Assembly: GCF_000214705.1 (NCBI RefSeq)
Contig: NC_015573.1
Location: forward strand, 2,921,001-2,985,000
Length of the DNA: 64,000 nt
Source: Desulfofundulus kuznetsovii DSM 6115
GTDB taxonomy: Bacteria > Bacillota > Desulfotomaculia > Desulfotomaculales > Desulfovirgulaceae
Direction: 5' to 3'
Shown here: piece after piece, positions 13,628-33,454 of the stretch
How positions within the stretch are numbered: position 1 is the stretch's first letter
Layout of the letters: every line of letters begins with the position of its first letter
Translations under genes and position numbers: made by a program
The notes under the pieces: generated by a model
Seen by the model: only the letters and a program-made list of their open reading frames with translations
Database searches by the model: none
What the model was told of the DNA's origin: nothing

Positions 13628-15352
13628 TTAAAACTTTCTCCGGGCCGTGTACCGTGTATGCAGTAGTTGATGGGATTTCTCTCCCAGGGGGCGACCCAAA
13701 AACTCCTCGTAAAGCTTCTTTATGGAAGGATTTTCGTGGGATTTCCGGATCCTTAACTTCTCATCCTCCTGGTACAGAGCCCGGGCGCGAAGCATCCTGA
13801 TTTCGTCGTTCACCGGGAGGGGCTGCCCGCCGCCACCGACGCACCCACCGGGACAGCACATAATTTCAATAAAGTGGTAATCCGCACTGCCGTCCTTGAT
13901 CCGGTCCAGAATCTTGCGAGCGTTGCCCAGACCATGGGCCACAGCCACCTTCAGCTCGCCCAACCCTTCCACCGGTACTACCGCCTCTTTGATGTCCTCC
14001 AGTCCCCTGACCGCCGTGAACTCCAGGCGTTCCAGGGTTTTCCCGGTTACCAGCTCGTAGACGGTACGCAGAGCCGCTTCCATTACCCCGCCGGTGGCGC
14101 CGAAAATAGTCCCCGCTCCACTGTATTCACCCAGAGGGTCATCATAATACCCGTCTTCGAGGCTCGCAAAATCTATGCCGGCTTGTTTAATCATCTTGGC
14201 CAGTTCCCGGGTGGTGATCACGTAATCAACATCCTTGTAACCGCTGCCGTTCATCTCGGGCCGGTTGCACTCAAACTTCTTGGCCGTACAGGGCATGACC
14301 GAGACCACCACCATGTCTTTCGGGTCCACCCCCACCTTTTGTGCATAATAGGTTTTCACCAGTGCCCCCAGCATTTGGTGGGGAGATTTGCAGGTGGACA
14401 GGTGGGGTAAAAGTTCCGGGTAAAAATGTTCGATAAATTTCACCCACCCCGGGCTGCAGCTGGTAATCATGGGCAGCACGCCGCCCTCTTTGATTCTTTT
14501 TAACAGTTCATGCCCTTCTTCGATGATGGTAAGGTCGGCCGCAAAGTTGGTGTCGAACACCCGGTCAAATCCCAGCCGGCGCACCGCCGCCAGCATTTTC
14601 CCGGTCACCAGCGTGCCCGGCGGATAGCCGAATTCCTCCCCCAGCGCTGCCCTTACCGCCGGGGCGTCCTGGACCACCACAAACTTGGACGGGTCAAAGA
14701 TGGCGTGCCACACCTCTTCGATATGTTCCTTCTCATGGATGGCCCCGACGGGACAGACCAGGATGCACTGACCGCAAAGGGCACAGGCAACATCGTTCAG
14801 GCTCTCGCCGAAGGCGGGTTCCACCCGGGTTTTAAACCCCCGGCCCTGAATGGAGATTGCCGCCACCTCCTGAATTTCCTTGCAAACGGTAACACAGCGG
14901 CGGCAGAGGATGCACTTGCTCTGGTCTCTCACAATGGAAGGCGAAAGGTTATCCAGGCGCCCTTCACTTTTCTCGCCGGTGAACTTAACTTCTCTGATCC
15001 CCAGCTCGTCGGCCAGTTTTTGCAGCTCGCACCTCTGATTACGGGTGCAGGTCAGGCAGTCGTCCATGGGATGGTCGGAAAGAATCATTTCCACCGAAAA
15101 CTTCCTGGCCCTCCTCACCCGGACGTTATTTGTGTGTACCACCAGCCCCTCGCTCACCGGAAATACACAGGCCGGCTGGAGGTTGCGGTTTCCCTCGATT
15201 TCCACCAGGCAAACCCGGCAGGCCCCGATGGCCTGCACTTCCGGCAGGTAGCAGAGGGTGGGAATACGAATGTTAGCCCTCCTGGCCGCTTCCAGAATGG
15301 TGCTGCCCTCTTCCGCCTGCACCTTAAGGCCGTCTATGGTCAGAGTTACCAT
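13628..15352 (-). CDS. hydA: [FeFe]-hydrogenase catalytic subunit HydA (electron-bifurcating type)
   Basis: 574 residues. N-terminal NuoG-like [2Fe-2S] domain (Cys34, Cys45, Cys48 and Cys62 region), a His/Cys 4Fe-4S motif, then a 2[4Fe-4S] domain (CILCRRC, CALCGQC). The H-cluster motifs are canonical: TSCSPGW, MPCTAKKFE and CCPGGCVGGGGQP. A C-terminal small-subunit-like tail follows. The protein reduces protons or oxidises H2 and, with HydB and HydC, couples this to NADH and ferredoxin together. It is shorter than Thermotoga HydA, which has an extra C-terminal [2Fe-2S] domain that is not seen here. Confidence 0.93.
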   Translation of the reverse strand: MVTLTIDGLKVQAEEGSTILEAARRANIRIPTLCYLPEVQAIGACRVCLVEIEGNRNLQPACVFPVSEGLVVHTNNVRVRRARKFSVEMILSDHPMDDCLTCTRNQRCELQKLADELGIREVKFTGEKSEGRLDNLSPSIVRDQSKCILCRRCVTVCKEIQEVAAISIQGRGFKTRVEPAFGESLNDVACALCGQCILVCPVGAIHEKEHIEEVWHAIFDPSKFVVVQDAPAVRAALGEEFGYPPGTLVTGKMLAAVRRLGFDRVFDTNFAADLTIIEEGHELLKRIKEGGVLPMITSCSPGWVKFIEHFYPELLPHLSTCKSPHQMLGALVKTYYAQKVGVDPKDMVVVSVMPCTAKKFECNRPEMNGSGYKDVDYVITTRELAKMIKQAGIDFASLEDGYYDDPLGEYSGAGTIFGATGGVMEAALRTVYELVTGKTLERLEFTAVRGLEDIKEAVVPVEGLGELKVAVAHGLGNARKILDRIKDGSADYHFIEIMCCPGGCVGGGGQPLPVNDEIRMLRARALYQEDEKLRIRKSHENPSIKKLYEEFLGRPLGEKSHQLLHTRYTARRKF

Positions 15353-15370
15353 CTTGTGTTACCCCCCTTG

Positions 15371-17017
15371 TTAAGAGATCTTCACTGCCGGCTGCTTCCT
15401 CAGCCTCTTGCAGACCCCGGCACGACAGTGTTTATCCCTGATATGCTCCAGGTACTCGTCCCGGAAATACTTGATGGTGGTCAGCACCGGGTTGGGAGCC
15501 GTCTGTCCGAGGCCACAAAGGGCGGCATCCTTGATGTTGACGCAGAGTTCCTCCAGCCTGTCGAGATCGTCTTCCTTACCCCTGCCCTGGGTTATGCGGA
15601 CGAGGATCTCCAAAATCCTTTTGGTACCGATCCGGCAGGGTGGGCATTTGCCACAGGATTCGCTCTGGGTAAAATCCATGAAGAACCGGGCAAAGTCCAC
15701 AATGCAGGTGTCTTCGTCGGTGATGATCAGCCCGCCCGACCCCACAATGGCCCCGATCCTGGCCAGCGATTCATAATCAATGGGGACATCAAGATATTCC
15801 GCGGGGATACACCCGCCCGAGGGACCGCCGGTCTGGGCGGCTTTGAACTTCTTGCCGTCCTTGATACCGCCCCCGATCTTATAAACCAGGTCCCTTAAAG
15901 TAGTACCCATGGGAACCTCCACCAGGCCGGTATTGATCACGCTGCCGGCCAGGGCAAAGACCTTGGTGCCCTTGCTTTTTTCCGTACCGAACCGGGCGAA
16001 CCAGTCGGCGCCCTTTAAAATGATGACGGGTATATTGGCGAAAGTTTCCACGTTATTGATCAGGGTGGGAAGTCCAAAAAGGCCCTTCTGGGCAGGGAAA
16101 GGAGGTCGTGGACGGGGCTCACCCCTTCTGCCCTCTATGGAGTTTAAGAGGGCGGTTTCCTCCCCGCAAACAAAGGCGCCGGCGCCAATCCTGATCTCCA
16201 CATCGAAATCAAAACCGGTGCCGAAAATATTTTTGCCCAGGTATTTATGTTCCCTGGCCTGTTCAATGGCCCGGCTCAAACGCTCGATGGCCAGGGGATA
16301 CTCCGCCCTGATGTAAACATAACCCTGACTGGCGCCAATGGCATAACCGGCGATAGCCATAGCTTCAATCACACTATGGGGATCCCCTTCCAGGACACTG
16401 CGGTCCATAAAAGCCCCCGGGTCCCCCTCGTCGGCGTTGCAAACCACGTACTTGGGGGTTTCCCTGGACTGGCTGGCAAATTTCCACTTGAGGCCGGTGG
16501 GAAATCCCGCACCTCCCCGCCCCCGGAGTCCGGACCTGATCACAGCGTCAATAACTTCTTCCCGGGTCATGGAGGTCAACACCGTGGACAGAGCACGGTA
16601 ACCGTCTCTGGCCACATATTCTTCGATGTTGTTGGGATCGATGAGGCCGCAGTTGCGCAGGACAATTTTTTGCTGGTACTTGAAGAAATCCATGTCCTCC
16701 ATCTTCGGAATGGCTTTACCCGTGGACGGATCTTTATACAGCAACCGGTCCACCAGCCTGCCGTTCAACAAGTGCTCCACCACAATTTCTTCCACATCCT
16801 GCGGGGCAACCTTATGGTAAAGCACCCCTTCAGGATTGATCAGCACCAGCGGACCCAGATTACACGAGCCAATACAACCGGTCTCGATAACCTTGACTTC
16901 CTGCTGCAGGCCGTGGCGGGCAACCTTTTGCCTGAAGGCGTCCCTAATCGCACGGCACCCGCACGACACACAACCGGCCCCGGCACAAACCAATACCTGC
17001 GCACGCCATTGATTCAT
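15371..17017 (-). CDS. hydB: HydB: NuoF-like flavin/NADH subunit of bifurcating hydrogenase, lacking C-terminal ferredoxin domain
   Basis: 548 residues. An N-terminal thioredoxin-like [2Fe-2S] domain is followed by the FMN/NADH-binding NuoF core (GRGGAGFPTGLKW; GAGAFVCGEETAL; PRPPFPAQKGL) and the 4Fe-4S motif SCGKCPPCRIGTKR. The chain stops at HCRAGVCKRLRKQPAVKIS. Homologues that I know continue from this CxAGxCK segment into a 2[4Fe-4S] ferredoxin domain, so about 60-70 residues are missing. A freestanding protein of that kind is encoded at 7792-8094. Role: the bifurcation centre linking NADH, ferredoxin and HydA. Confidence 0.92.
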   Translation of the reverse strand: MNQWRAQVLVCAGAGCVSCGCRAIRDAFRQKVARHGLQQEVKVIETGCIGSCNLGPLVLINPEGVLYHKVAPQDVEEIVVEHLLNGRLVDRLLYKDPSTGKAIPKMEDMDFFKYQQKIVLRNCGLIDPNNIEEYVARDGYRALSTVLTSMTREEVIDAVIRSGLRGRGGAGFPTGLKWKFASQSRETPKYVVCNADEGDPGAFMDRSVLEGDPHSVIEAMAIAGYAIGASQGYVYIRAEYPLAIERLSRAIEQAREHKYLGKNIFGTGFDFDVEIRIGAGAFVCGEETALLNSIEGRRGEPRPRPPFPAQKGLFGLPTLINNVETFANIPVIILKGADWFARFGTEKSKGTKVFALAGSVINTGLVEVPMGTTLRDLVYKIGGGIKDGKKFKAAQTGGPSGGCIPAEYLDVPIDYESLARIGAIVGSGGLIITDEDTCIVDFARFFMDFTQSESCGKCPPCRIGTKRILEILVRITQGRGKEDDLDRLEELCVNIKDAALCGLGQTAPNPVLTTIKYFRDEYLEHIRDKHCRAGVCKRLRKQPAVKIS

Positions 17018-17031
17018 CCCGGTCCCCTCCT

Positions 17032-17526
17032 TTACTCGTATTTTTCCAGAATTTCATTTATCCGGGCAGGATCCACCCGAGCATAGACATCCTCGTCGAT
17101 TAAGACCGCCGGCGCCAGGCTGCAGGCTCCCACACAGCGCACCTCGTTTAAGGAAAATTTCCTGTCCCTGGTGGTATCACCCACCCGGACTCCAAGGGCC
17201 TTCTCCAGATGGTCAATGATCCTCTGCCCTCCCCGCACATAACAGGCCGTACCCATGCAGACCCTGATTTCATGCCTGCCTTTAGGCACAAGGGAAAAGA
17301 AGGCGTAAAAAGTAGCCACCCCGTGTACCTCGCTCAAGGGGACATTAAGTCCTTCTGCCGCCATTTCCTGTACCCTGCGCGGCAGGTAGCCCAAAAGGTT
17401 CTGGGCCTTGTGTAGTACCATGATCAGGGCATTTTTATCCCCCCGGTGTTGATTAATAAACTCTTCGATCTGGGGATAAAGCTCCTCCTCATTGACCGGA
17501 ACACAGGTACAGCATTGTTTTTCCAT
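17032..17526 (-). CDS. hydC: HydC: NuoE-like [2Fe-2S] subunit of bifurcating hydrogenase
   Basis: 164 residues, NuoE family. A helical N-terminal region (LIMVLHKAQNLLGYLP) leads into a thioredoxin-like [2Fe-2S] fold with ligands in CMGTACYVRGG and CVGACSLAPAVLID. It passes electrons within the HydABC complex. It is the first gene of the operon, with 14 bp to hydB, and two dyad elements lie within 310 bp upstream. Confidence 0.92.
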   Translation of the reverse strand: MEKQCCTCVPVNEEELYPQIEEFINQHRGDKNALIMVLHKAQNLLGYLPRRVQEMAAEGLNVPLSEVHGVATFYAFFSLVPKGRHEIRVCMGTACYVRGGQRIIDHLEKALGVRVGDTTRDRKFSLNEVRCVGACSLAPAVLIDEDVYARVDPARINEILEKYE

Positions 17527-18155: not shown

Positions 18156-18394
18156 ATGAGCCCAACGATCTTAAGAGAAAAAGGTTATCGTTTCTTTTTC
18201 TTCTCCCGTGAGGAGACGCGAATGCATGTCCACGTTGTATGTTCCGACGGAGAAGCAAAGTTTTGGCTTCTCCCGGAGATTGAGTTGGCGAAAACCATAA
18301 TTTAACACGGGCTCAGTTGAAGGAAATCGAAAGCATAATTGAGGTGTATTATGATGAGTTCAAAAGCGCTTGGGAAAAGCACTTCGGCAGTTGA
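18156..18394 (+). pseudogene. DUF4160 protein with a -1 frameshift
   Basis: From ATG 18156 the frame reads MSPTILREKGYRFFFFSREE, then HVHVVCSDGEAKFWL, the DUF4160 hallmark, and halts at a TAA at 18303. If one base is added in the run of four A residues near 18290, the frame continues through the expected NHNLTRAQLKEIESII and YYDEFKSAWEKHF to a stop at 18394. So one lost A has broken the gene, unless slippage restores the frame. DUF4160 genes are commonly paired with DUF2442, as here, in a toxin-antitoxin-like arrangement of unproven function. Confidence 0.75.
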
Positions 18395-18620
18395 AATTAC
18401 CCATATTTCAAAGAATGGAGTTTGGCTTCTGGCCTATGACAAAGAGCTGTTCATGGCTTACAAAGATTTCCCATGGTTTAAGGATGCTCCTGTTGGGAAA
18501 ATCCTTAACGTCAAAGAGCTTCATCGGGGGCATTTCTATTGGCCGGATTTAGATGTGGATCTTACCGTTGAGATCATAGAACACCCGGAACGGTTTCCTT
18601 TAAAGGCAAAATACACATAA
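18351..18620 (+). CDS. DUF2442 family protein
   Basis: 89 residues from ATG 18351, which has GAGGTG six bases upstream; an in-frame TTG at 18339 is less likely. The core GVWLLAYDKELFMAYKDFPWF and the later HFYWPDLDVDL with EHPERFP are characteristic of DUF2442. It overlaps the end of the frameshifted DUF4160 gene by 44 bp. The pair is often considered a type II-like module, but no activity can be inferred. Confidence 0.82.
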   Translation: MMSSKALGKSTSAVEITHISKNGVWLLAYDKELFMAYKDFPWFKDAPVGKILNVKELHRGHFYWPDLDVDLTVEIIEHPERFPLKAKYT

Positions 18621-18799
18621 GACGGATGGTGGCGCAGGCAAGTAAAAACAAACCCGGCCGCCACCGGATGGCGGAAGCCGGGGAAGACGGAAGGAAGATC
18701 ATGCCCCGCATCGAGGGCTAAAAAATTTTTCCGACAATAAAAATACAGCAGGAAATTCTGGAGGGCAAGGCGAAATAGTTTAGTTAAAAAATAGCGTTA

Positions 18800-18905
18800 G
18801 CGTTCTCCGAGCCCGATTACCTGTGGCCATGGCTATGGTTTTCGGGCCGGCAGGGTATACCGGGAAACTGGTGTGCCTCCCAGTGCGGAAAGGAGAACAC
18901 TGCCA
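18800..18905 (+). ncRNA. Candidate Moco/tungsten-cofactor (Moco RNA motif) riboswitch aptamer
   Basis: GTTCTCC (18802-18808) pairs perfectly with GGAGAAC (18892-18898), closing a structure of about 97 nt. Inside, GCCCGA (18811-18816) pairs with TCGGGC (18842-18847). The 3' part GTGCCTCCCAGTGCGGAAAG resembles the conserved core that I recall for the Moco RNA motif. It lies on the plus strand ahead of two tandem terminators and the tungstate-binding gene tupA. Context, pairing and partial sequence memory support the call; no covariance model was run. Confidence 0.6.
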
Positions 18906-18923
18906 AGCTTTTAAGTGGGTAGG

Positions 18924-18957
18924 CTGTGTTCTGTTTCCCGCAGAACACAGTTTTTTT
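18924..18957 (+). terminator. First riboswitch-associated terminator
   Basis: Perfect 10-bp stem CTGTGTTCTG/CAGAACACAG (18924-18933, 18941-18950) with a 7-base loop and a 7-T run. It lies 19 bp after the aptamer candidate and well ahead of tupA. Confidence 0.85.
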
Positions 18958-18993
18958 CTGCGGACGTATAACCACCCGGCCGCCCGGAAAACG

Positions 18994-19031
18994 GCTGTGC
19001 TTCTGCCTTTTCGCCAGAGCACAGCTTTTTT
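18994..19031 (+). terminator. Second riboswitch-associated terminator
   Basis: Stem GCTGTGCT/AGCACAGC (18994-19001 with 19018-19025), extended by TCTG/CAG inside, then a run of six T. A second intrinsic terminator so close to the first points to tight attenuation of tupA transcription. The remaining leader to 19244 contains no gene. Confidence 0.8.
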
Positions 19032-19244: not shown

Positions 19245-20138
19245 ATGTTCAAGCGAATTCTTACCCCTGTATTAACCCTTCTCCTTGCGCTCGTGCTTAT
19301 TGCGGGCTGCTCTTCCAATAGCGCACAGGAAGAAGCAAAACAGGGACAGCCGGCCCGGGAAAAACCGCAAAAACAGGACGTAATTCTGGCCACCACCACC
19401 AGCACCCAGGACAGCGGCCTTCTGGATGTGCTTATTCCGGAATTTGAAAAGAAAACCGGTTATAAGGTGAAAACCATTGCCGTGGGTACGGGCCAGGCCC
19501 TGGAAATGGGTAAAAAAGGTGAAGCGGACGTGCTGCTGGTGCACGCCCCCAAAGCGGAAAAGGAACTGGTGGACAGCGGCGTGGGCATCAACTACCGGCT
19601 GGTAATGCATAACGACTTTATCGTGGTCGGTCCGGAAAACGACCCGGCCGGAGTCAAGTCGGCCCAAAACACTGTGGAAGCCTTTAAAAAAATCGCCCAA
19701 ACCCGGAGCACCTTTGTTTCCCGCGGGGATGAATCGGGCACCCACAAGAAAGAAAAAGACATCTGGAAAGAAGCCGGCATTACCCCCGGCGGCAAATGGT
19801 ACCAGGAAGCCGGCACGGGCATGGGCAATACTCTGAACATTGCCTCGGAAAAGGGAGGCTATACCCTCAGCGACCGGGCCACCTACCTGGCCAACCAGAA
19901 GCACCTGAAGTTGAAGATCCTTTATGAAGGGGACAAAACCCTGCTCAATATCTACCACGTCATGCAGGTGAACCCGGAAAAATTCAGCAAGGTCAATGCC
20001 GAAGGTGCCAAAGCCTTTGTGGACTTCATGGTTTCACCTGAAACCCAGCAAATTATCGGTAAGTTCGGGGTGGACAAGTACGGCCAGCCGCTGTTCTTCC
20101 CCGATGCCGGTAAAAAGGAAGAAGAACTGGGGAAGTAG
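19245..20138 (+). CDS. tupA: Tungstate ABC transporter substrate-binding lipoprotein TupA
   Basis: 297 residues. A lipoprotein signal (LALVLIAGCSS, lipidated Cys about residue 22) is followed by the TupA core, beginning ATTTSTQDSGLLD, with VGTGQALEMGKKGEADVLLVHAP and SRGDESGTHKKE, residues of the oxyanion site. It captures tungstate outside the membrane for TupBC. The chain has a low-complexity K/E linker after the lipobox. Expression is probably gated by the riboswitch-like leader and two terminators upstream. Tungsten supply fits the two AOR genes in this window. Confidence 0.93.
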   Translation: MFKRILTPVLTLLLALVLIAGCSSNSAQEEAKQGQPAREKPQKQDVILATTTSTQDSGLLDVLIPEFEKKTGYKVKTIAVGTGQALEMGKKGEADVLLVHAPKAEKELVDSGVGINYRLVMHNDFIVVGPENDPAGVKSAQNTVEAFKKIAQTRSTFVSRGDESGTHKKEKDIWKEAGITPGGKWYQEAGTGMGNTLNIASEKGGYTLSDRATYLANQKHLKLKILYEGDKTLLNIYHVMQVNPEKFSKVNAEGAKAFVDFMVSPETQQIIGKFGVDKYGQPLFFPDAGKKEEELGK

Positions 20139-20317: not shown

Positions 20318-21064
20318 GTGAACAACACCATCTTAGAAGTGTACAATCTACAGTTCAAGCGGGGAAACCGGGAAATTTTAAATATCGATCATTTTGCCCT
20401 TCATGAGAGGGAAACCATCGCCCTGATCGGGCCAAATGGAGCCGGCAAAAGTACCCTGTTGCAGGTAATGGCCCTTTTATTAAAACCAACCCGCGGAACC
20501 GTGGAATTCCGGGGCGTACCGGCCACCCCCCGAAACGCCCTGGCCATTCGCCGGCGCATGGCCGTGGTGTTCCAGGAACCGCTTCTTTTAAATACGACGG
20601 TCTATGAGAATGTGGCCACAGGACTGAAGCTGCGGGGAGTTCCCCGGCAGGAAATAAAAAAAAGGGTTGGCCGCTGGCTGGAACTGCTGGGCATCGCCCA
20701 CCTGGCCGGGCGCCGCTCCCACCAGCTTTCAGGGGGAGAAGCCCAGAGGGTCAGCCTGGCCAGGGCCTTTGCCCTGGAACCGGACGTTTTGTTCCTGGAC
20801 GAACCCTTTTCCGCCCTGGATTTCCCCACCCGCCTGTCCCTGCTCAATGAACTGGACAGGCTTTTAAAAGATACGGGGATTGCTGCTATTTTTGTAACCC
20901 ATGATTTTTCGGAGGTGCCCTATCTCACCGACCGGGTGGCCGTGCTCAAAAACGGCCGCCTCGTCAAAACAGGCACCTTCGAGGAAATATTTAAAGTAAA
21001 GCCCCGGCGGGAGAACTACATTACCTCCCTTTACCGGGTTTTTGAAAGCGACGCGGCGGGGTAA
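20318..21064 (+). CDS. tupC: Tungstate ABC transporter ATP-binding protein TupC
   Basis: 248 residues with a full set of ABC motifs: Walker A GPNGAGKST (about residue 38), Q-loop VVFQEPLLL, signature LSGGEAQRVSLARA, Walker B VLFLDEPFSALD and switch His in VTHDF. It powers tungstate import with TupA, encoded 180 bp upstream, and a permease. The permease is not adjacent; a TupB-type gene lies 6 kb away on the other strand at 27052-27750. Confidence 0.88.
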   Translation: MNNTILEVYNLQFKRGNREILNIDHFALHERETIALIGPNGAGKSTLLQVMALLLKPTRGTVEFRGVPATPRNALAIRRRMAVVFQEPLLLNTTVYENVATGLKLRGVPRQEIKKRVGRWLELLGIAHLAGRRSHQLSGGEAQRVSLARAFALEPDVLFLDEPFSALDFPTRLSLLNELDRLLKDTGIAAIFVTHDFSEVPYLTDRVAVLKNGRLVKTGTFEEIFKVKPRRENYITSLYRVFESDAAG

Positions 21065-23809: not shown

Positions 23810-25756
23810 TTACTTCTGTTCCCACATGACCTTGCCGCAGTCCCGCAGGTCGTAGCCGCCCAGGGCCTGTACCTCTTTCCGGAACTCCGGCAGGTCCATC
23901 ACGGTCAACAAACGCTGGATGTAAGGTGTATCCCAGTATTCCCGGGGGATGCAGAGGTCGTAACGCTCCTCGGCCAGGGGTATGAAGTCGAGCCCCAGGG
24001 CCACCGCGGCGGCCCGGATGCCAAGCCCCGCGTCCACCCCGCCGGCCACGGCCGCCGCTACGGCCATGTGGGTGTATTCCTCCCGCTCGTAACCGTTTAT
24101 TTGGTCCGGGCTGATCCCCAGCTGTTTCAAGTGGTAATCCAGCAAAACCCGGGTACCCGCCCCCCGCTGCCGGTTCACAAAGGTAACGTCAGGCCGGGCC
24201 AGGTCCTCCAGCCCCCGGATCCCTTTGGGATTGCCTTTGGCCACAATCAGCCCCTGCTCCCGGTAGACCAGGTTGACCAGCACTACTCCCCTGCCCGGCA
24301 GCAGCCGCTGGATATAGGAAACGTTGTACTCCCCCGTTTCCTCATCCAAAAGGTGCGTGCCGGCACAGTGGGCCTCTCCCCTTTTCAAGGCGTTCAAACC
24401 CGCCAGGCTCCCTACATGGGCGCTGGACAGGCTGGCCTGGGGGTAAAGGCGGCGCAGGTAATTGGCCAGGACGTCCAGGGCGATATCGTGGCTGCCGATG
24501 ATGACGGTGGTTTCCTTGATCTCCTCCAGGGGACGCAGGAGCTCCACCGGCACCGCCTGGCCCGCACCGTAACCCTCGGAAAGCCGGGGCACCCGCACAA
24601 TGCCGTCGGCCCGGATCAGGGACATGATGATGCCCGCTCCCCGGGATATGGGTGTGGCAATGATCTTGTCCCCCACCTGTCCCAGTTTGACCCGTACAAA
24701 CTCCTCCACTCCCAGGGAGGAGACCAGCTTGCGGGAAACGGTGGCTTCAATTTTCCGGCGGGCGGGCGGGACGGAACCAAGCTTTTTGTATATGATGGGT
24801 TTAACAAACAAATCAGCACACAGGTAGGCCGATACGGGGTAACCGGGCACCCCGATCACCGGCCGCCCGTCCACTTCCCCCAGGATCACCGGTTTCCCCG
24901 GCCTGGTGGCCACACCGTGCACCAGCACCCGGCCCAGACTTCTGATTACTTCCGCCGTGTAATCCTCGCTGCCGGCCGAAGAGCCGGCATTGATGAGCAC
25001 CACATCGGATTCCTGCAGGGCTTCCAGCAGGGACTGGCGCAGGGCCTCAAAATCATCGGCGGTGATTTTTTTGCGGACCGGATCGCCCCCCCACTCGCTC
25101 ACCAGGCCTGCCAGCATCCGGCTGTTATAGTCGATAATATCTCCGGGCCTCAGCTCCCGGCCCGGCTCCACCAGTTCCGTACCGGTGGGCAAAATGGCCA
25201 CCCGCGGCCGGGGGTGGACGGAAATTTCCGTTACCCCGCCGGCCAGGAGCCCCCCGATGTCCACCGGGCGCACCCGGTGATTGGCGGGAACGATCATTTC
25301 CGTAGCAACGATATCTTCCCCAATGGGCCGCACGTGCTGCCAGGGGTAAACCGGCTGGGTGATCTCCAGGACTTCCGGGGACACAAAATGCACGTCCTCC
25401 ACCATGATCACCGCATCGTACCCTTCAGGGAGGGGATCACCCGTATCGACCATGATGGCCTCGCTGCCCACAGCCAGCCGTTTGGGAGCAGTTTCGGAAG
25501 CACCAAAGGTCAGGGCAGCCTTCACCGCATAGCCGTCCATGGCCGCCGCGTGGTAGTGGGGCGAAGACACCCGTGCATAAACGGGAGCCGCCGTCACCCG
25601 GCCCCGGGCCTCCTCCACCGCCACAACCTCGGGCGGCCCGGGATTGAGTGCCCCCTTTTGCTCAAGGTAAGCCATGTATTCTTCCAGGGCTTCTTCCCAG
25701 GGCCGGTCGTCCAGATAAACGTCCCGTTTGCCCGTGACCTTAGACAACGCCATCAC
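23810..25756 (-). CDS. moeA: MoeA-family molybdopterin molybdenumtransferase fused to a periplasmic-binding-like domain
   Basis: 648 residues. Residues 1 to about 410 are MoeA: SSPHYHAAAMDGYAVKA, DTGDPLPEGYDAVIMVEDV, GDIIDYNSRML, NAGSSAGSEDYT and GVPGYPVSAYL. The last 230 residues form a PBP-like domain (TVIIGSHDIALDVLANYL ... GVDAGLGIRAAAVALGLDF). MoeA inserts Mo or W into the adenylated pterin. The fused domain resembles ones that bind oxyanions or small ligands and may sense the metal, which is inference. It follows another moeA gene with a 3-bp gap. Confidence 0.88.
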   Translation of the reverse strand: MMALSKVTGKRDVYLDDRPWEEALEEYMAYLEQKGALNPGPPEVVAVEEARGRVTAAPVYARVSSPHYHAAAMDGYAVKAALTFGASETAPKRLAVGSEAIMVDTGDPLPEGYDAVIMVEDVHFVSPEVLEITQPVYPWQHVRPIGEDIVATEMIVPANHRVRPVDIGGLLAGGVTEISVHPRPRVAILPTGTELVEPGRELRPGDIIDYNSRMLAGLVSEWGGDPVRKKITADDFEALRQSLLEALQESDVVLINAGSSAGSEDYTAEVIRSLGRVLVHGVATRPGKPVILGEVDGRPVIGVPGYPVSAYLCADLFVKPIIYKKLGSVPPARRKIEATVSRKLVSSLGVEEFVRVKLGQVGDKIIATPISRGAGIIMSLIRADGIVRVPRLSEGYGAGQAVPVELLRPLEEIKETTVIIGSHDIALDVLANYLRRLYPQASLSSAHVGSLAGLNALKRGEAHCAGTHLLDEETGEYNVSYIQRLLPGRGVVLVNLVYREQGLIVAKGNPKGIRGLEDLARPDVTFVNRQRGAGTRVLLDYHLKQLGISPDQINGYEREEYTHMAVAAAVAGGVDAGLGIRAAAVALGLDFIPLAEERYDLCIPREYWDTPYIQRLLTVMDLPEFRKEVQALGGYDLRDCGKVMWEQK

Positions 25757-25759
25757 TCC

Positions 25760-26992
25760 TCAAAAAAGTTTGACCTCCACCCATTCGCCTGCTTCTACAC
25801 CTTCTTTGCCCGCCGGGATGCGGGCCAGCCCGTCGGCACGAACCATGGTAGTAATCAGGCCCGATTTGCCCAGCACGGGCTCCGCGTGAAGCTCCCCGTC
25901 CTGCAAACGCAGTTTCACCCGCACGAAATCCTCCCGCCCGGCGGCGGAACGCAAATTGCGGGTTATCCGCGCCCTCAGGGGGAATTCCCAAAAGCCTTCC
26001 CGGGGGTAACTGTAAGATCTAATCAAAGGAGCCACCAGCAGCTCAAAGACCACCAGGGCCGAGGCGGGATGGCCGGGCAGGCCGAAAACCGGTTTGCCGT
26101 TCACCACCGCCCCCACGGAGGGTTTGCCGGGTTTCAGGGATATGCCGTGAAACAAAACCCCCGGCCGCCCCAGGGAATCAATCACCCGGGCCGCCACGTC
26201 CCGGGTGCCCACCGAACTGCCCCCGGAGAGCAGGACCATGTCGTTTTCCGAAAGGGCCCGGGCCAGCTGTTCCTGCAGCCGGTGAAAGTCGTCCCGGACA
26301 ATGCCGTACAGGCGGGACTCGCCGCCACAGCCGGCCACCGCGCCGTAAAGGGTATAGGAGTTGATGTCCCGCACCTGGCCTGGAGCCGGCTTTTCTTCCG
26401 GGGAGACCACTTCATCGCCGGTGGAGATGATACCCACCCTTAAGGCGCGTCTTACTTCCACCGCAGCAACCCCGGCTGCGGCCAGTATCCCCAGGTCCTG
26501 CGGCCGCAGGCGGTGTCCCGCCGGCAACACCACGCTCCCGGCCGGGACATCCTCACCCCGGCGGACGACGTTCTCCCCGGGCGCCACCGGCCTGGTAACG
26601 CCAATGGTCTTTTCATCCAGCTCCTCGGTATGCTCCACCATCACCACCGCGTCGGCGCCCGCGGGCAGCATGCCGCCGGTGGCAATGCGCCAGGCCTGGC
26701 CCGGCTTTAACTCCCCTTCCGGCGCCGCGCCCATCAGGACTTCCCCCGCCACCTCCAGGTAGGCGGGCAGGCCCTCGGAGGCGCCAAAGGTATCCTTTGC
26801 CCGCACGGCAAAACCGTCCATGGTGGAACGGTCAAAGCCGGGCACATCGTCAACGGCCACCACATCGTGCAAAAGACAACGGTCGAGGGCGGACAACAAT
26901 GAAACTTTCTCCCCATCCCGGGGAAATGACACATGGTTTAAAACTATTTCCCGCGCCTCTTTAATGGTAACTGCCTGAAACAATTCCTTCAT
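25760..26992 (-). CDS. moeA: MoeA molybdopterin molybdenumtransferase
   Basis: 410 residues from ATG 26992 (MKELFQAV), which has GGAGAG upstream; the frame extends to 27043 without a better start. It shows MoeA motifs FDRSTMDGFAV, ATGGMLPAGADAVVMVE, STGDEVV, DINSYTL, LSGGSSVGTRD, and GLPGHPASALVVFE. This is a full-length stand-alone MoeA. With the fused MoeA next to it, the cell may use one paralogue for molybdenum and one for tungsten, as proposed for organisms with duplicate moeA genes. Confidence 0.9.
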   Translation of the reverse strand: MKELFQAVTIKEAREIVLNHVSFPRDGEKVSLLSALDRCLLHDVVAVDDVPGFDRSTMDGFAVRAKDTFGASEGLPAYLEVAGEVLMGAAPEGELKPGQAWRIATGGMLPAGADAVVMVEHTEELDEKTIGVTRPVAPGENVVRRGEDVPAGSVVLPAGHRLRPQDLGILAAAGVAAVEVRRALRVGIISTGDEVVSPEEKPAPGQVRDINSYTLYGAVAGCGGESRLYGIVRDDFHRLQEQLARALSENDMVLLSGGSSVGTRDVAARVIDSLGRPGVLFHGISLKPGKPSVGAVVNGKPVFGLPGHPASALVVFELLVAPLIRSYSYPREGFWEFPLRARITRNLRSAAGREDFVRVKLRLQDGELHAEPVLGKSGLITTMVRADGLARIPAGKEGVEAGEWVEVKLF

Positions 26993-27051
26993 CCACTTTT
27001 CTCTCCTTAAATATAGCAACGCTGTCAGGGCGGCAGTCGCCACTCTGATCT

Positions 27052-27750
27052 TTAAGCATGGCTGCCGCGCTGCTGGGCCATGGTTAAAAAGGCGGTAATG
27101 CCGTAGGCCAGGAGCAGCAAAATGATGCTTAAGGCGGTGGCCAGCTCATACTTGCCCTGGCCCACTGCCAGTACCGTGGCCGTGGTGAGCACCCGGGTAC
27201 TGCCGGCAATGTTGCCGCCGACCATCATGGAGGCGCCCACCTCGGAAATCACGCCGCCAAACCCGGCCATAACCGCGGCCAGCAGGCCCAGCCGGGCCTC
27301 CCGCACCAGAAGCCACAGCAATTGACACCGGGAAGCCCCCAGGGCCAGGATCTGCAGGGGAATCTTCGGGTTTAAAGACTGCATGGCGGCCACGGTAAAG
27401 CCGGCCACAATAGGGGAAGCAATAATGGCCTGGGCCACCACCATGGCCGCAGGGGTGTAAAGGAGGTCGAGGAAACCCAGGGGCCCGTACCGGGTAAAGG
27501 TAAGCCAGACCGCCAGCCCCACCACCACCGGCGGCAGGCCCATGCCGAAGTTAACCACACTGACCAGGAAGCGGCGGCCGGGGAAATTGGTCAAGGCCAG
27601 AAGGGTCCCCAGGGGAACGCCAATGAGCACACTGATCAGTGTGGCCAGACCGGAGATTCTTAAAGTGCGTAAGGTAATATCCAGAACTTCGGGATCGCCT
27701 GTCGCCAGCAAACGAACGGCCTCCACAAGACCCTGCCAGAAGATTTCCAA
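27052..27750 (-). CDS. tupB: Tungstate-type ABC transporter permease TupB
   Basis: 232 residues with five or six hydrophobic segments and the permease EAA-like loop near residues 135-155 (QILALGASRCQLLWLLV). The region GMGLPPVVVGLAVWL and the ending GGVISEVGASMMVGGNIAG match TupB/YvrB-type permeases. The start is TTG 27750 with AAAGGAG about ten bases upstream. It is coupled to moeA and separated from tupA and tupC, which lie on the opposite strand. It probably completes that transporter. Confidence 0.82.
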   Translation of the reverse strand: MEIFWQGLVEAVRLLATGDPEVLDITLRTLRISGLATLISVLIGVPLGTLLALTNFPGRRFLVSVVNFGMGLPPVVVGLAVWLTFTRYGPLGFLDLLYTPAAMVVAQAIIASPIVAGFTVAAMQSLNPKIPLQILALGASRCQLLWLLVREARLGLLAAVMAGFGGVISEVGASMMVGGNIAGSTRVLTTATVLAVGQGKYELATALSIILLLLAYGITAFLTMAQQRGSHA

Positions 27751-28051: not shown

Positions 28052-29971
28052 TTACCTTAGTAAATTTAGCTCCGCCAGCTTTTCTCTCCCGGGCACCCCC
28101 GTATCCGGATCCCACCCCCGGGCCAGGTAATATTCCCTCAAAACCTCCCGCACCTTTTCCCGGTCCAGCCTGCGCCCGGCGGCGGGACCGGCCCTCACCG
28201 GCTCTTCGTAAAAACGGGAGGGGTAATCGGCATCACCCGGTTTTTCCCCGTGGCGCAGGTTAAACAGCTTCTGAAGGTTCCAGATGCGCTCCCCCGCCCT
28301 GATCACTTCCGCCGGTGTAATATCAATGCCGGTCAAGCTGGTATACAGGCGGGCAAAAAGGGTGGGACCCACGGTATGCAGCACGGGCGGGCGGATGCAC
28401 ATGCCCAGCGCGTTGTAAACGGCAATGAGATCCTCCGCCCACCTGGACATTTTGGGTATGTTTACATCCCGGGTAACCGGATCAAAAATCTCTTTTTTCA
28501 ACTCGTCCGGCATGTCCAGACGATCATACATCTCCTCCGGAAAACCAAACTTCTCCGTAAGGTAGGGGACGGGGTTTTCGTTGTAACGGAGATTTTCCAC
28601 CGGGTTCCGGGTGCGCAGGTGGTCTCCGCCCCGTACGCTGGTAATATACCCCAGCGTCCAGGTGGACCAGCGGGCCCGGGGATCTAAAAGGAAACACTCC
28701 AACCCCTTGACTTCCACGGCATATCTTGATGCTCCGGGGAAATGCCGCGCTGCCCTCCTGACGCCTTCGGCCAGCACATCCCCCATGCCCCGGCGGTGAG
28801 CAATCATGTCGAGCAGGGAAATGGTGGCCCGTTCATCGCCCCAGTTGAGGGAGAAGCCCAGATCCTTTTCGCCGATCAGCCCCTTTTCGTACAACTCCAT
28901 GGCGAAGGCTACCACCGCCGCTGCGGAAACCATGTCCATACCCAGGCGCTGGCAGGTTTCGGTAAGCATGGCGATGGCCGGCAGGTTGTTGATATCACAC
29001 CCGGCTCCAAAGCCGATCACCGGTGTAACTTCCAGGTCTTTAAGTCTCAGGCCGGCGTAGGGGCCTTCCTTCACTTCCACCCAGTGGGCACAGGCAATAG
29101 GGCAGGCCATACAGGCCACCCCGCGGGTACTGTACCTGGGCAGGACCCTGCGGCTGCGGGTTTCCACCCAGCCGTCAACGGCGCCGCGCTGGTAATTGCG
29201 CCCGGGAAGGGCCCCAAACTCCTGGTAGGGCAGGCTGGCCAGCATGGTGCCGAAGCGGGAAAAGGAACCGTAAAAGGGGGAGGAAAAGATGGCTTTACGG
29301 GTGTCATCCACCGCCTGCAGGAACTCCTTCCGGTGAGCCACCCGCACAGCACCCCGGCCGCGTACCGCTACGGCCTTCAGGTTTTTGCTGCCCATTACCG
29401 CCCCCAGCCCCGTGCGGGCCCAAGCATCAAAGGGGCCGTTTTCTATGCTGGCAAAGCGGACCAGGTTTTCGCCGGCCTGGCCAATGGCCGCCACCTGGAT
29501 GGCGTCATCGCCCAGTTCCCGGCGGATCCGGCGCACCGTCTCCCAGGCATCCCGCCCCCAGAGGTGGCCCGCCGGTAAAATTGTTGCCTGGCCGTCACAG
29601 ATCCATACATAAACCGGCGAGGCAGCCTTTCCCCGGATGATCACCCCGTCAAATCCGGCAAACTTGAGCTCGCTCCCCCAGAAGTTGCCGGAGTTGGCCG
29701 TGCCAAACAAGCCGGTGGCGGGCGAGAGGGCGGAAGCTTCGGTGCGGGACGCGGTGGGCACCGTCGTCCCCACCAGCACTCCCACGTTAAAGGCAAGGAC
29801 ATTCTCCGGGCCGAGGGGGTCGGCACCGGCGGGAATCTCTTCATACAGCAGGCGGGCGTTAAATCCCAGGCCGCTTAAATACTCCCCGGCCCAATCCTGC
29901 TCCACCGGGCGTTCCCTTATTTTGCCGGCAGTGAGGTCGATATCCAGGATTTTGCCGCTGTAACCGTACAC
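28052..29971 (-). CDS. aor: Aldehyde:ferredoxin oxidoreductase (tungsten enzyme)
   Basis: 639 residues. Cluster ligands C287-x2-C290-x3-C294 and a late Cys in YNALGMCIRPP match the four Cys of Pyrococcus AOR. The pterin-binding segment has GLGAVMGSKNLKAVAV and the C-terminal half has SVRGGDHL. The enzyme oxidises aldehydes to acids, or works in reverse, with ferredoxin. The start is GTG 29971 with GAGAGGGGG upstream; an overlapping ATG is out of frame. The ferredoxin gene sits 15 bp upstream, so both are one transcript. Confidence 0.93.
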   Translation of the reverse strand: MYGYSGKILDIDLTAGKIRERPVEQDWAGEYLSGLGFNARLLYEEIPAGADPLGPENVLAFNVGVLVGTTVPTASRTEASALSPATGLFGTANSGNFWGSELKFAGFDGVIIRGKAASPVYVWICDGQATILPAGHLWGRDAWETVRRIRRELGDDAIQVAAIGQAGENLVRFASIENGPFDAWARTGLGAVMGSKNLKAVAVRGRGAVRVAHRKEFLQAVDDTRKAIFSSPFYGSFSRFGTMLASLPYQEFGALPGRNYQRGAVDGWVETRSRRVLPRYSTRGVACMACPIACAHWVEVKEGPYAGLRLKDLEVTPVIGFGAGCDINNLPAIAMLTETCQRLGMDMVSAAAVVAFAMELYEKGLIGEKDLGFSLNWGDERATISLLDMIAHRRGMGDVLAEGVRRAARHFPGASRYAVEVKGLECFLLDPRARWSTWTLGYITSVRGGDHLRTRNPVENLRYNENPVPYLTEKFGFPEEMYDRLDMPDELKKEIFDPVTRDVNIPKMSRWAEDLIAVYNALGMCIRPPVLHTVGPTLFARLYTSLTGIDITPAEVIRAGERIWNLQKLFNLRHGEKPGDADYPSRFYEEPVRAGPAAGRRLDREKVREVLREYYLARGWDPDTGVPGREKLAELNLLR

Positions 29972-31726: not shown

Positions 31727-33454
31727 TTAGAAGTTGAATACCTGGTCCAATCCCTCTTCCCTGACATCAAAGACCGTGTTGTGGGGCGGCAGTTCTTCCA
31801 GGCTGAAGAACTCCGGCAACCGGTCGTCGGCGCTGGTGAATCCGGCCTTGAGGTTGAACTCCCTCTCCGCCTTCAATACCTGTTTGCCCAGGTTGAGCAC
31901 GTCATCCACAGTTAAATTGAAGCCGTACCTGGCGTTAAGCAACTCCACAATGGTGGGCATTCCCTCGGGGTTGTCCAGAACGGCAAAGGCCACAAAGAGA
32001 CACAATCCGGTACTGTCTATGAACGCGGTGGCAATTTGCAGGTTCCGGGAAAGCTCCACCTGCCCCTCGGGTTTCAGCGGGTCCACGTACCCGCCTACCT
32101 TTAGAATATTGGCGGTAACGGCATACCCGGCGGTATGGTCGGCGCCCATGGGCGTGGTGGCGTAGGTAACGCCGTTGCCTTTGCAGGCCCGCGGGTCGTA
32201 GGCGGGGATGCCCTGGCCCTTCACAGCGGGCACGCGGGTTACACCGTAAACCCGGCCGGCGTTGGCCGAACCGCCGCCGATAATCCGCCCCAGAGGCGTG
32301 CCCCTGGCCACTTCTTCCAGGGCTTTAATGGCAGCCTCACCGTCGCCGAAGGGTATGACGCCGGCTTCCATGAGCACACCCAGGGTGCACCCCGTCTCAA
32401 TGGTGTCCAGGCCCACGTCGTTGCAGATGTAGTTCAGTTTGGCGATTACATCCAGGTCGCCGATTTCCAGGTTCGGGCCGAAACACCAGGCGGTTTCATA
32501 TTCAATGGGGGCACAAACCTTACCGTCGGGCATGGGATATACGTTTGAACACCGCATGACGCAACCGGGGTGGCAGGCATGGGTGGCCTTTCCGCCGCGG
32601 GCAACGGCCACCTCGGCCAGCTTCTCCCCGCTGACCTCAGCAGCTTTGTCAAAACGGCCAAAGCGGAAGTTTCTGGTGGGGAGGGTGCCCGCCTCATTGA
32701 TGATGTTCATGAGCACGTTGGTGCCATAGTTAGGCAGACCCTGCCCGGTTACGGGGTGGTTCTGTAAAATTTGGGCAAACTTCCTGGCCGCCGCCTTGAA
32801 ACGCTCGGGCTCTTTGACCGGCGCATCAAAGGTGGTGGGGCTGTCCACGACGATGGCCTTAATTTTCTTGGAGCCCATTACCGCCCCCAGGCCGCCCCGG
32901 CCGGCATAACGGCTGCTGTTGCCATCACTGTCGTTGTTGGTCACCCCTGCGGCCGGCATGAGCATTTCGCCGGCAGGACCAATGGTAATCACGGCGACCT
33001 TATTACCGTAACGCTCCCGGCAGATGGCCGTAACCTCGTAGGTACCCTTGCCGGCCAGATCGCTGGCGGGCAGCAACTCCGCACCACCGGGAGTGACCTT
33101 GAGCAGGTACCAATCGCTGCCTGCGGGCTTACCCTCAAGAATGATAGCCTTGATGCCCAGGTTGGCCAGCTTCTGAGAGGCAATACCGCCGGCATTGGCT
33201 TCCTTAATTCCTCCGGTGAGGGGGCTCTTTCCTCCCACCGACAGCCGTCCCGATGACGGTGCGTTGGTGCCGGAGAGCAATCCCGGGGCAATGACCAGCT
33301 TGTTGTAGGGACCGAGAGGATCACAGGTGGGCGGCACCTCATCTAAAACCAGCTGGGACGTGAGCGCCCTGCCCCCAAGCGCCATATACTTTTCCGGTAC
33401 TTCTTCAAACTTGACTTCCCCGGTGGTCGTATTAACCCGCAGGAACTTGGACAC
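31727..33454 (-). CDS. Second aldehyde:ferredoxin oxidoreductase family protein
   Basis: 575 residues. The AOR cofactor motif GRGGLGAVMGSKKIKAIVV is present at about 186-203, with cluster ligands C294-x3-C298-x3-C302 and a later Cys in IDSTGLCLF. The spacing CxxxCxxxC differs from the CxxC form of AOR1. Length is shorter than AOR1, so it may belong to another AOR subfamily with a different aldehyde or aromatic substrate. The start is GTG 33454 with AAAGGAGG nine bases upstream. It is the first gene of an operon with sulfur-carrier genes. Confidence 0.9.
   Translation of the reverse strand: MSKFLRVNTTTGEVKFEEVPEKYMALGGRALTSQLVLDEVPPTCDPLGPYNKLVIAPGLLSGTNAPSSGRLSVGGKSPLTGGIKEANAGGIASQKLANLGIKAIILEGKPAGSDWYLLKVTPGGAELLPASDLAGKGTYEVTAICRERYGNKVAVITIGPAGEMLMPAAGVTNNDSDGNSSRYAGRGGLGAVMGSKKIKAIVVDSPTTFDAPVKEPERFKAAARKFAQILQNHPVTGQGLPNYGTNVLMNIINEAGTLPTRNFRFGRFDKAAEVSGEKLAEVAVARGGKATHACHPGCVMRCSNVYPMPDGKVCAPIEYETAWCFGPNLEIGDLDVIAKLNYICNDVGLDTIETGCTLGVLMEAGVIPFGDGEAAIKALEEVARGTPLGRIIGGGSANAGRVYGVTRVPAVKGQGIPAYDPRACKGNGVTYATTPMGADHTAGYAVTANILKVGGYVDPLKPEGQVELSRNLQIATAFIDSTGLCLFVAFAVLDNPEGMPTIVELLNARYGFNLTVDDVLNLGKQVLKAEREFNLKAGFTSADDRLPEFFSLEELPPHNTVFDVREEGLDQVFNF

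Follow-up and report, generated by a model that had tools for sequence, protein, structure and literature searches.

A predicted P3-less Moco-family riboswitch with one aptamer and two terminators ahead of the tungstate uptake genes tupA-tupC of Desulfofundulus kuznetsovii

The Moco RNA motif was described by Regulski et al. in 2008 as an element found ahead of molybdenum and tungsten (Mo/W) genes, with terminator expression platforms in some members (PMC2408646). In the passages of that study used here, 58 of the 176 Moco RNAs form a class devoid of the P3 stem, which was proposed to sense the tungsten cofactor (Tuco or Wco), and tungsten users were called via tupA and tupB (PMC2408646). Members of the family also occur in series: Syntrophomonas wolfei has a triple array of Moco-family riboswitches (PMC2408646), and tandem Moco and Wco riboswitches are listed in a review of tandem riboswitches (PMC9481103). 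Since these sources cover such riboswitches, the element analysed here belongs to a known class.

We studied a 64,000-nt stretch (hereafter the window) of the genome of D. kuznetsovii DSM 6115, a single contig of 3,601,386 bases. The sole match at gathering threshold in the whole window is RF01055, the Moco RNA motif, at 18793-18911 on the + strand (75.7 bits against a gathering threshold of 36, E = 1.7e-16, full model from 1 to 135; cmscan, Rfam 15). This is the covariance search by which a first-pass annotation of the sequence had proposed to check its riboswitch candidate, and the candidate passes it. Between 18600 and 19300, we found no other RNA family up to E = 1 and no second RF01055 match. 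The element is a Moco RNA motif; the notion of a chance fold with no riboswitch behind it is refuted at the sequence level by the E-value, and we give it practically no credence. The first-pass annotation had also reported a closed aptamer-like fold with GTTCTCC/GGAGAAC. Both strands are present and form P1 (18802-18808 paired with 18892-18898, + strand), as indicated by the alignment and by conservation in the leaders, and the folds beat those of shuffled sequences. The folding energy of the 119-nt aptamer is -55.8 kcal/mol and that of its shuffled versions -40.9 (sd 3.7), which gives z = -4.0, with one shuffle in 200 doing as well; the 243-nt leader reaches z = -6.5 with none of 200 shuffles as good.

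The order aptamer-T1-T2-tupA, where T1 and T2 are the two hairpins described below, occurs in all eight tupA-bearing genomes among the nine searched in the host family; the ninth (G067) has no tupA match and carries three Moco RNAs. The eight leaders share the signatures of the aptamer. P4 bears a GAAA loop, i.e., a GNRA tetraloop, in every one of them, and the UAUGG side of the receptor in the P2 bulge was found in all eight. The other side of the receptor is CCUGUG in seven leaders, that of the window included, and CCUAAG in Desulfovirgula; the CCUGUG side was judged by sight, and we accept it on the basis of what we take to be the canonical tetraloop-receptor letters. P3 is absent: the columns of this stem are deleted in the RF01055 alignment, so that 3 nt separate P2 from P4, against 16 positions, a 5-pair P3 among them, in the model. 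The aptamer is thus of the P3-less (Tuco/Wco) subtype.

Behind the aptamer lies tupA (19245-20138, +), which matches the tungstate-binding protein model NF041772 with 249 bits (E = 3.8e-74, below the equivalog cut-off of 400) and the solved chains 3muq (E = 8e-79) and 3lr1 (named tungstate-binding; E = 7e-74), in agreement with the gene's earlier identification as a tungstate-binding protein. Its product is 100% identical to the TupA of Desulfofundulus australicus DSM 11792. The gene tupC (20318-21064, +), which adjoins tupA in the window's clade, encodes a transporter ATPase whose best NCBIfam model is WtpC (193 bits, below the cut-off of 440), and the Moco RNA is therefore directly followed by two Mo/W genes. 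Between T2 and tupA there is a small reading frame, which was discarded as a part of the switch: this stretch is absent in one relative (L037), so the frame is dispensable. Immediately upstream of the riboswitch are a DUF2442 gene (18339-18620, +) and, ahead of it, a short reading frame that appears interrupted by eye, the pair spanning 18156-18620 (+). A gene set beside the riboswitch, at 13628-17526 (-), encodes an NADH-dependent [FeFe] hydrogenase of group A6 whose subunits include NuoF- and NuoE-like ones.

The permease gene tupB (27052-27750, -; NF041773, 141.8 bits, below the cut-off of 320) is outside the riboswitch operon. Its product is 62% identical to that of the tupB beside tupA in Moorella mulderi, and it is the only strong match in the host genome. 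It lies about 7 kb from tupA-tupC on the opposite strand, after an aldehyde ferredoxin oxidoreductase gene (28052-29971) and just before a moeA gene (25760-27043) and a longer moeA-type gene (23810-25756), so that the tungstate importer is split over two transcription units. The two genes are likewise on opposite strands in each of the other seven genomes of the family that have tupA: the strong tupB match shares the contig of tupA, at a distance of some 5-19 kb. Among the best 80 of 340 tupA relatives, tupB is directly downstream of tupA in 51 loci, a count that includes those where tupB starts at the end of tupA (L074, L082, L091, L092, L103, L113, L115, L122); three of the other 29 (L070, L101, L108) have less than 1.8 kb of downstream sequence. 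Six loci (L052-L057) have tupA-tupC and no tupB match in the stretch examined. As the window contains just this one Moco RNA at gathering threshold, nothing found here suggests that a switch of this type also governs tupB. The locus is an example of a tungstate importer whose permease gene sits outside the riboswitch operon.

The two moeA-type genes next to tupB are distinct and side by side on the - strand, and the one at 23810-25756, which matches NF011068 with 823 bits, is longer at the C-terminus. Perhaps one serves tungsten and the other molybdenum, which is a guess. The window also has two aldehyde ferredoxin oxidoreductase genes, at 28052-29971 and 31727-33454 (-). This family is known for tungsten enzymes, and the host genome has 11 AFOR_C matches, of which two are the window genes and one is a short fragment with a stop.

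Of 113 genomes searched in the host order, 104 carry the RF01055 motif, which is thus ordinary there. Its association with tupA is common as well: when we scanned all of the best 80 of 340 tupA relatives, 40 loci had a Moco RNA upstream on the same strand (29 within 500 bp, the rest at about 1.0-1.3 kb), two of the 80 having less than 500 bp of upstream sequence. In six of these best 80 loci, tupA is preceded by a pair of Moco aptamers arranged in series (L059, L060, L062, L081, L087, L101). At three others (L063:1872-1993, L065:1747-1871 and L069:1847-1964), the Moco RNA precedes another TupA-like binding protein, recognised by eye from its ASTIGPIDAGI motif, and the tupA match lies about 1 kb beyond that gene. 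A second possible Moco RNA in the host genome (G000:C1:2557733-2557847) was set aside on its score of 28.5 bits, below the gathering threshold of 36. In five of the six genomes analysed from the genus, the aptamer of the tupA leader is the only Moco RNA above the cut-off. A lone Moco RNA whose target is tungstate uptake makes a clean case for asking whether the ligand of P3-less Moco RNAs is the tungsten cofactor.

Which cofactor the aptamer binds can be approached from its subtype and its surroundings. The missing P3, together with the published correlation between lack of P3 and tungsten use, makes the tungsten cofactor the better guess, and more likely than Moco. Tungsten genes are indeed present, namely tupA, tupB and tupC (each below its curated cut-off) and the 11 AFOR_C matches. 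The same switch might instead respond to Moco, or to either cofactor, if the loss of P3 were a lineage habit rather than a choice of metal. P3-less aptamers do precede other genes in the host order, oxidoreductase-like (L033, L039) or modA-like (L040) as judged by eye, and deletion of P3 in E. coli abolished regulation in all conditions tested without making a Tuco sensor (PMC2408646). Against such a habit stand the near-perfect match between P3-less RNAs and tungsten users in the published passages (PMC2408646), the tupA target and the aldehyde ferredoxin oxidoreductase genes found here, and we regard this alternative as unlikely.

Downstream of the aptamer, T1 (18924-18957, +) was identified by folding, terminator scan and conservation. 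Its core stem pairs 18924-18933 with 18941-18950 and is followed by seven T (18951-18957); it is an uninterrupted 12-pair hairpin when folded alone and has 14 pairs, G-T included, in the terminator scan. A perfect terminator within 20 bp of the fold had been announced by the first-pass annotation: the stem is uninterrupted as stated, and the spacing is slightly larger, with 23-26 nt from P1 to the start of T1. The 5' arm of T1 contains GTGTTCT (18926-18932), complementary to AGAACAC at 18894-18900 (+), which overlaps the 3' strand of P1 and would be the 5' side of an antiterminator. As 18894-18900 is common to both helices, the aptamer stem and the antiterminator are mutually exclusive, and the locus is therefore predicted to be an OFF switch acting by premature termination. 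We consider it very probable that a P3-less riboswitch of the Moco family controls tupA-tupC by transcription termination, with plentiful cofactor turning the genes off.

In the proposed mechanism, the tungsten cofactor (or, less likely, Moco), when plentiful, would bind the nascent aptamer and keep P1 closed. This would leave the 5' arm of T1 free, so that T1 could form and RNA polymerase would stop, and T2 may give a second chance to halt the polymerases that leak past T1. When the cofactor is scarce, the 3' strand of P1 would pair with the 5' arm of T1, T1 would come too late, and the tungstate uptake genes would be made. In cells, the response would thus presumably run from cofactor present to uptake genes off.

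Folding of the eight leaders is consistent with such a competition. In ligand-free transcripts ending at the 3' arm of T1, the antiterminator has a probability of 0.97-1.00 in seven leaders and 0.25 in Desulfovirgula (L042). When ligand binding is modelled at the same transcript end as a bonus on P1, with an assumed value of -8 kcal/mol, T1 reaches 0.92-0.96 in all eight. Four bases further, the ligand-free RNA of the window favours P1 and T1 (0.97 each), and ligand-free T1 ranges from 0.01 to 0.84 in the other seven. Since P1 and T1 are already preferred four bases later, the ON state must be a kinetic one, set by timing.

The complementarity between P1 and T1 in the window is marginal relative to shuffled versions of the 3' extension of P1, 10 of 200 being as good. 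Six of the 33 aptamers tested reach the level of the window, four of them from its clade or nearest kin (the window, L036, L041 and L042), and we discarded the P1/T1 antiterminator as a general design in the host order. These 33 aptamers were hand-picked, mostly for a nearby terminator, from a set of 92 that omits six loci duplicating others; the set was built with a lenient home-made hairpin finder that reports overlapping hairpins, and served as a source of candidates only.

The linkers diverge among the eight leaders while the pairs of P1, T1 and the antiterminator persist: 7/7 pairs are kept in P1, 7/7 in the antiterminator, 9-10/10 in T1 and 8-11/11 in T2. The helices P1, T1 and antiterminator hardly vary in sequence among these leaders, so that covariation offers no proof of the switch. 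The T run comprises at least seven T in T1 and four to six in T2.

The second terminator-like hairpin, T2 (18994-19031, +), was identified by folding and conservation. Its stem (18994-19005 with 19015-19025) has 11 pairs and one bulge and is followed by six T (19026-19031); the hairpin folds at -17.9 kcal/mol. It is missing from the list of the consensus terminator scan, which over 3 kb gave seven terminator-like sites against 5.0 in shuffles. We accept T2 because it is kept as a hairpin in all eight homologous leaders. The second terminator of the first-pass annotation is thus real, but it is imperfect and weaker than T1. With the RF01055 match, tupA behind it and both hairpins kept in relatives, the riboswitch candidate put forward at the outset is supported.

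What T2 does can be read in several ways. The first-pass annotation had suggested that a pair of terminators in a row might keep leakage low in the OFF state. In the window, the 5' arm of T2 equals that of T1 plus one inserted base, and this likeness raises the possibility that the aptamer gates T1 and T2 alike: when no ligand is bound, the 5' arm of T2 could be captured by the 3' strand of P1 (hand-over) or by the freed 3' arm of T1 (relay). In ligand-free transcripts six bases short of the end of the T2 stem, the best pair of a hand-over or relay helix is indeed highly probable in all eight leaders, and the duplex of the T2 5' arm with the P1 3' strand has energies from -13.2 to -17.4 in all eight. 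However, the relay helix is weak in two relatives (L038, -8.6; L042, -6.0), and the shuffled-arm control gives a positive ligand-dependent difference in only five of the eight sequences, with 9, 5, 82, 28, 30, 97, 16 and 6 of 100 shuffles per sequence matching or beating it. Once T2 is complete and four bases have been added, it exceeds 0.5 without ligand in six of eight leaders, and the resemblance of T1 and T2 may only mean that one copies the other. We therefore think that joint gating is quite improbable, and that T2 is most likely a back-up or a weak attenuator.

Another reading gives T2 no part in the response to the ligand: it would be a weak ligand-independent attenuator or a hairpin stabilising the 5' end of the mRNA, perhaps a decaying copy of T1. 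The shorter T run of T2 fits this, as do the defects of its stem in L041 (a mismatch and wobbles) and L038 (two mismatches) and its position in L037, where some 40 nt separate the end of the stem from the start of tupA. But the hairpin is present in all eight leaders despite the diverged linker around it, and in G066 a C-G pair has become T-A by changes on both sides of the stem. This reading has appreciable weight, which we place somewhat short of even. If joint gating were nonetheless true, the two stop signals would open and close together, and leakage would be multiplied down without a second aptamer. In the open-licence PMC passages, we found no description of one aptamer with two coupled terminators, a scope that carries no claim of absence from print. 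The locus makes a natural leader with one aptamer and two terminators available for study.

The comparison with known systems places the locus within the family. It resembles the Moco RNA motif RF01055 in its core sequence, its P1, P2, P4 and P5 stems, its GAAA loop and its place before Mo/W genes (PMC2408646). Unlike the Moco RNA of E. coli moaA, which has P3 and is described as acting on translation, it lacks P3 and is predicted to act by termination (PMC2408646). With the Tuco/Wco variant it shares the missing P3 and the tungsten genes of the organism, and the only difference seen from the published passages is the second terminator behind one aptamer (PMC2408646). Successive terminators before one gene set are also found in tandem Wco riboswitches and in the triple array of S. 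wolfei (PMC9481103, PMC2408646), but the window has a single aptamer where the tandem Wco riboswitches have two (PMC9481103). The rimP leader likewise has two terminators in one leader; unlike the window, it is not a Moco RNA, and the antiterminator mentioned for it is that of the first of its two terminators (PMC2965389). The one-aptamer, two-terminator leader is thus a modest twist, a small variation in the expression platform of an otherwise ordinary member of the family.
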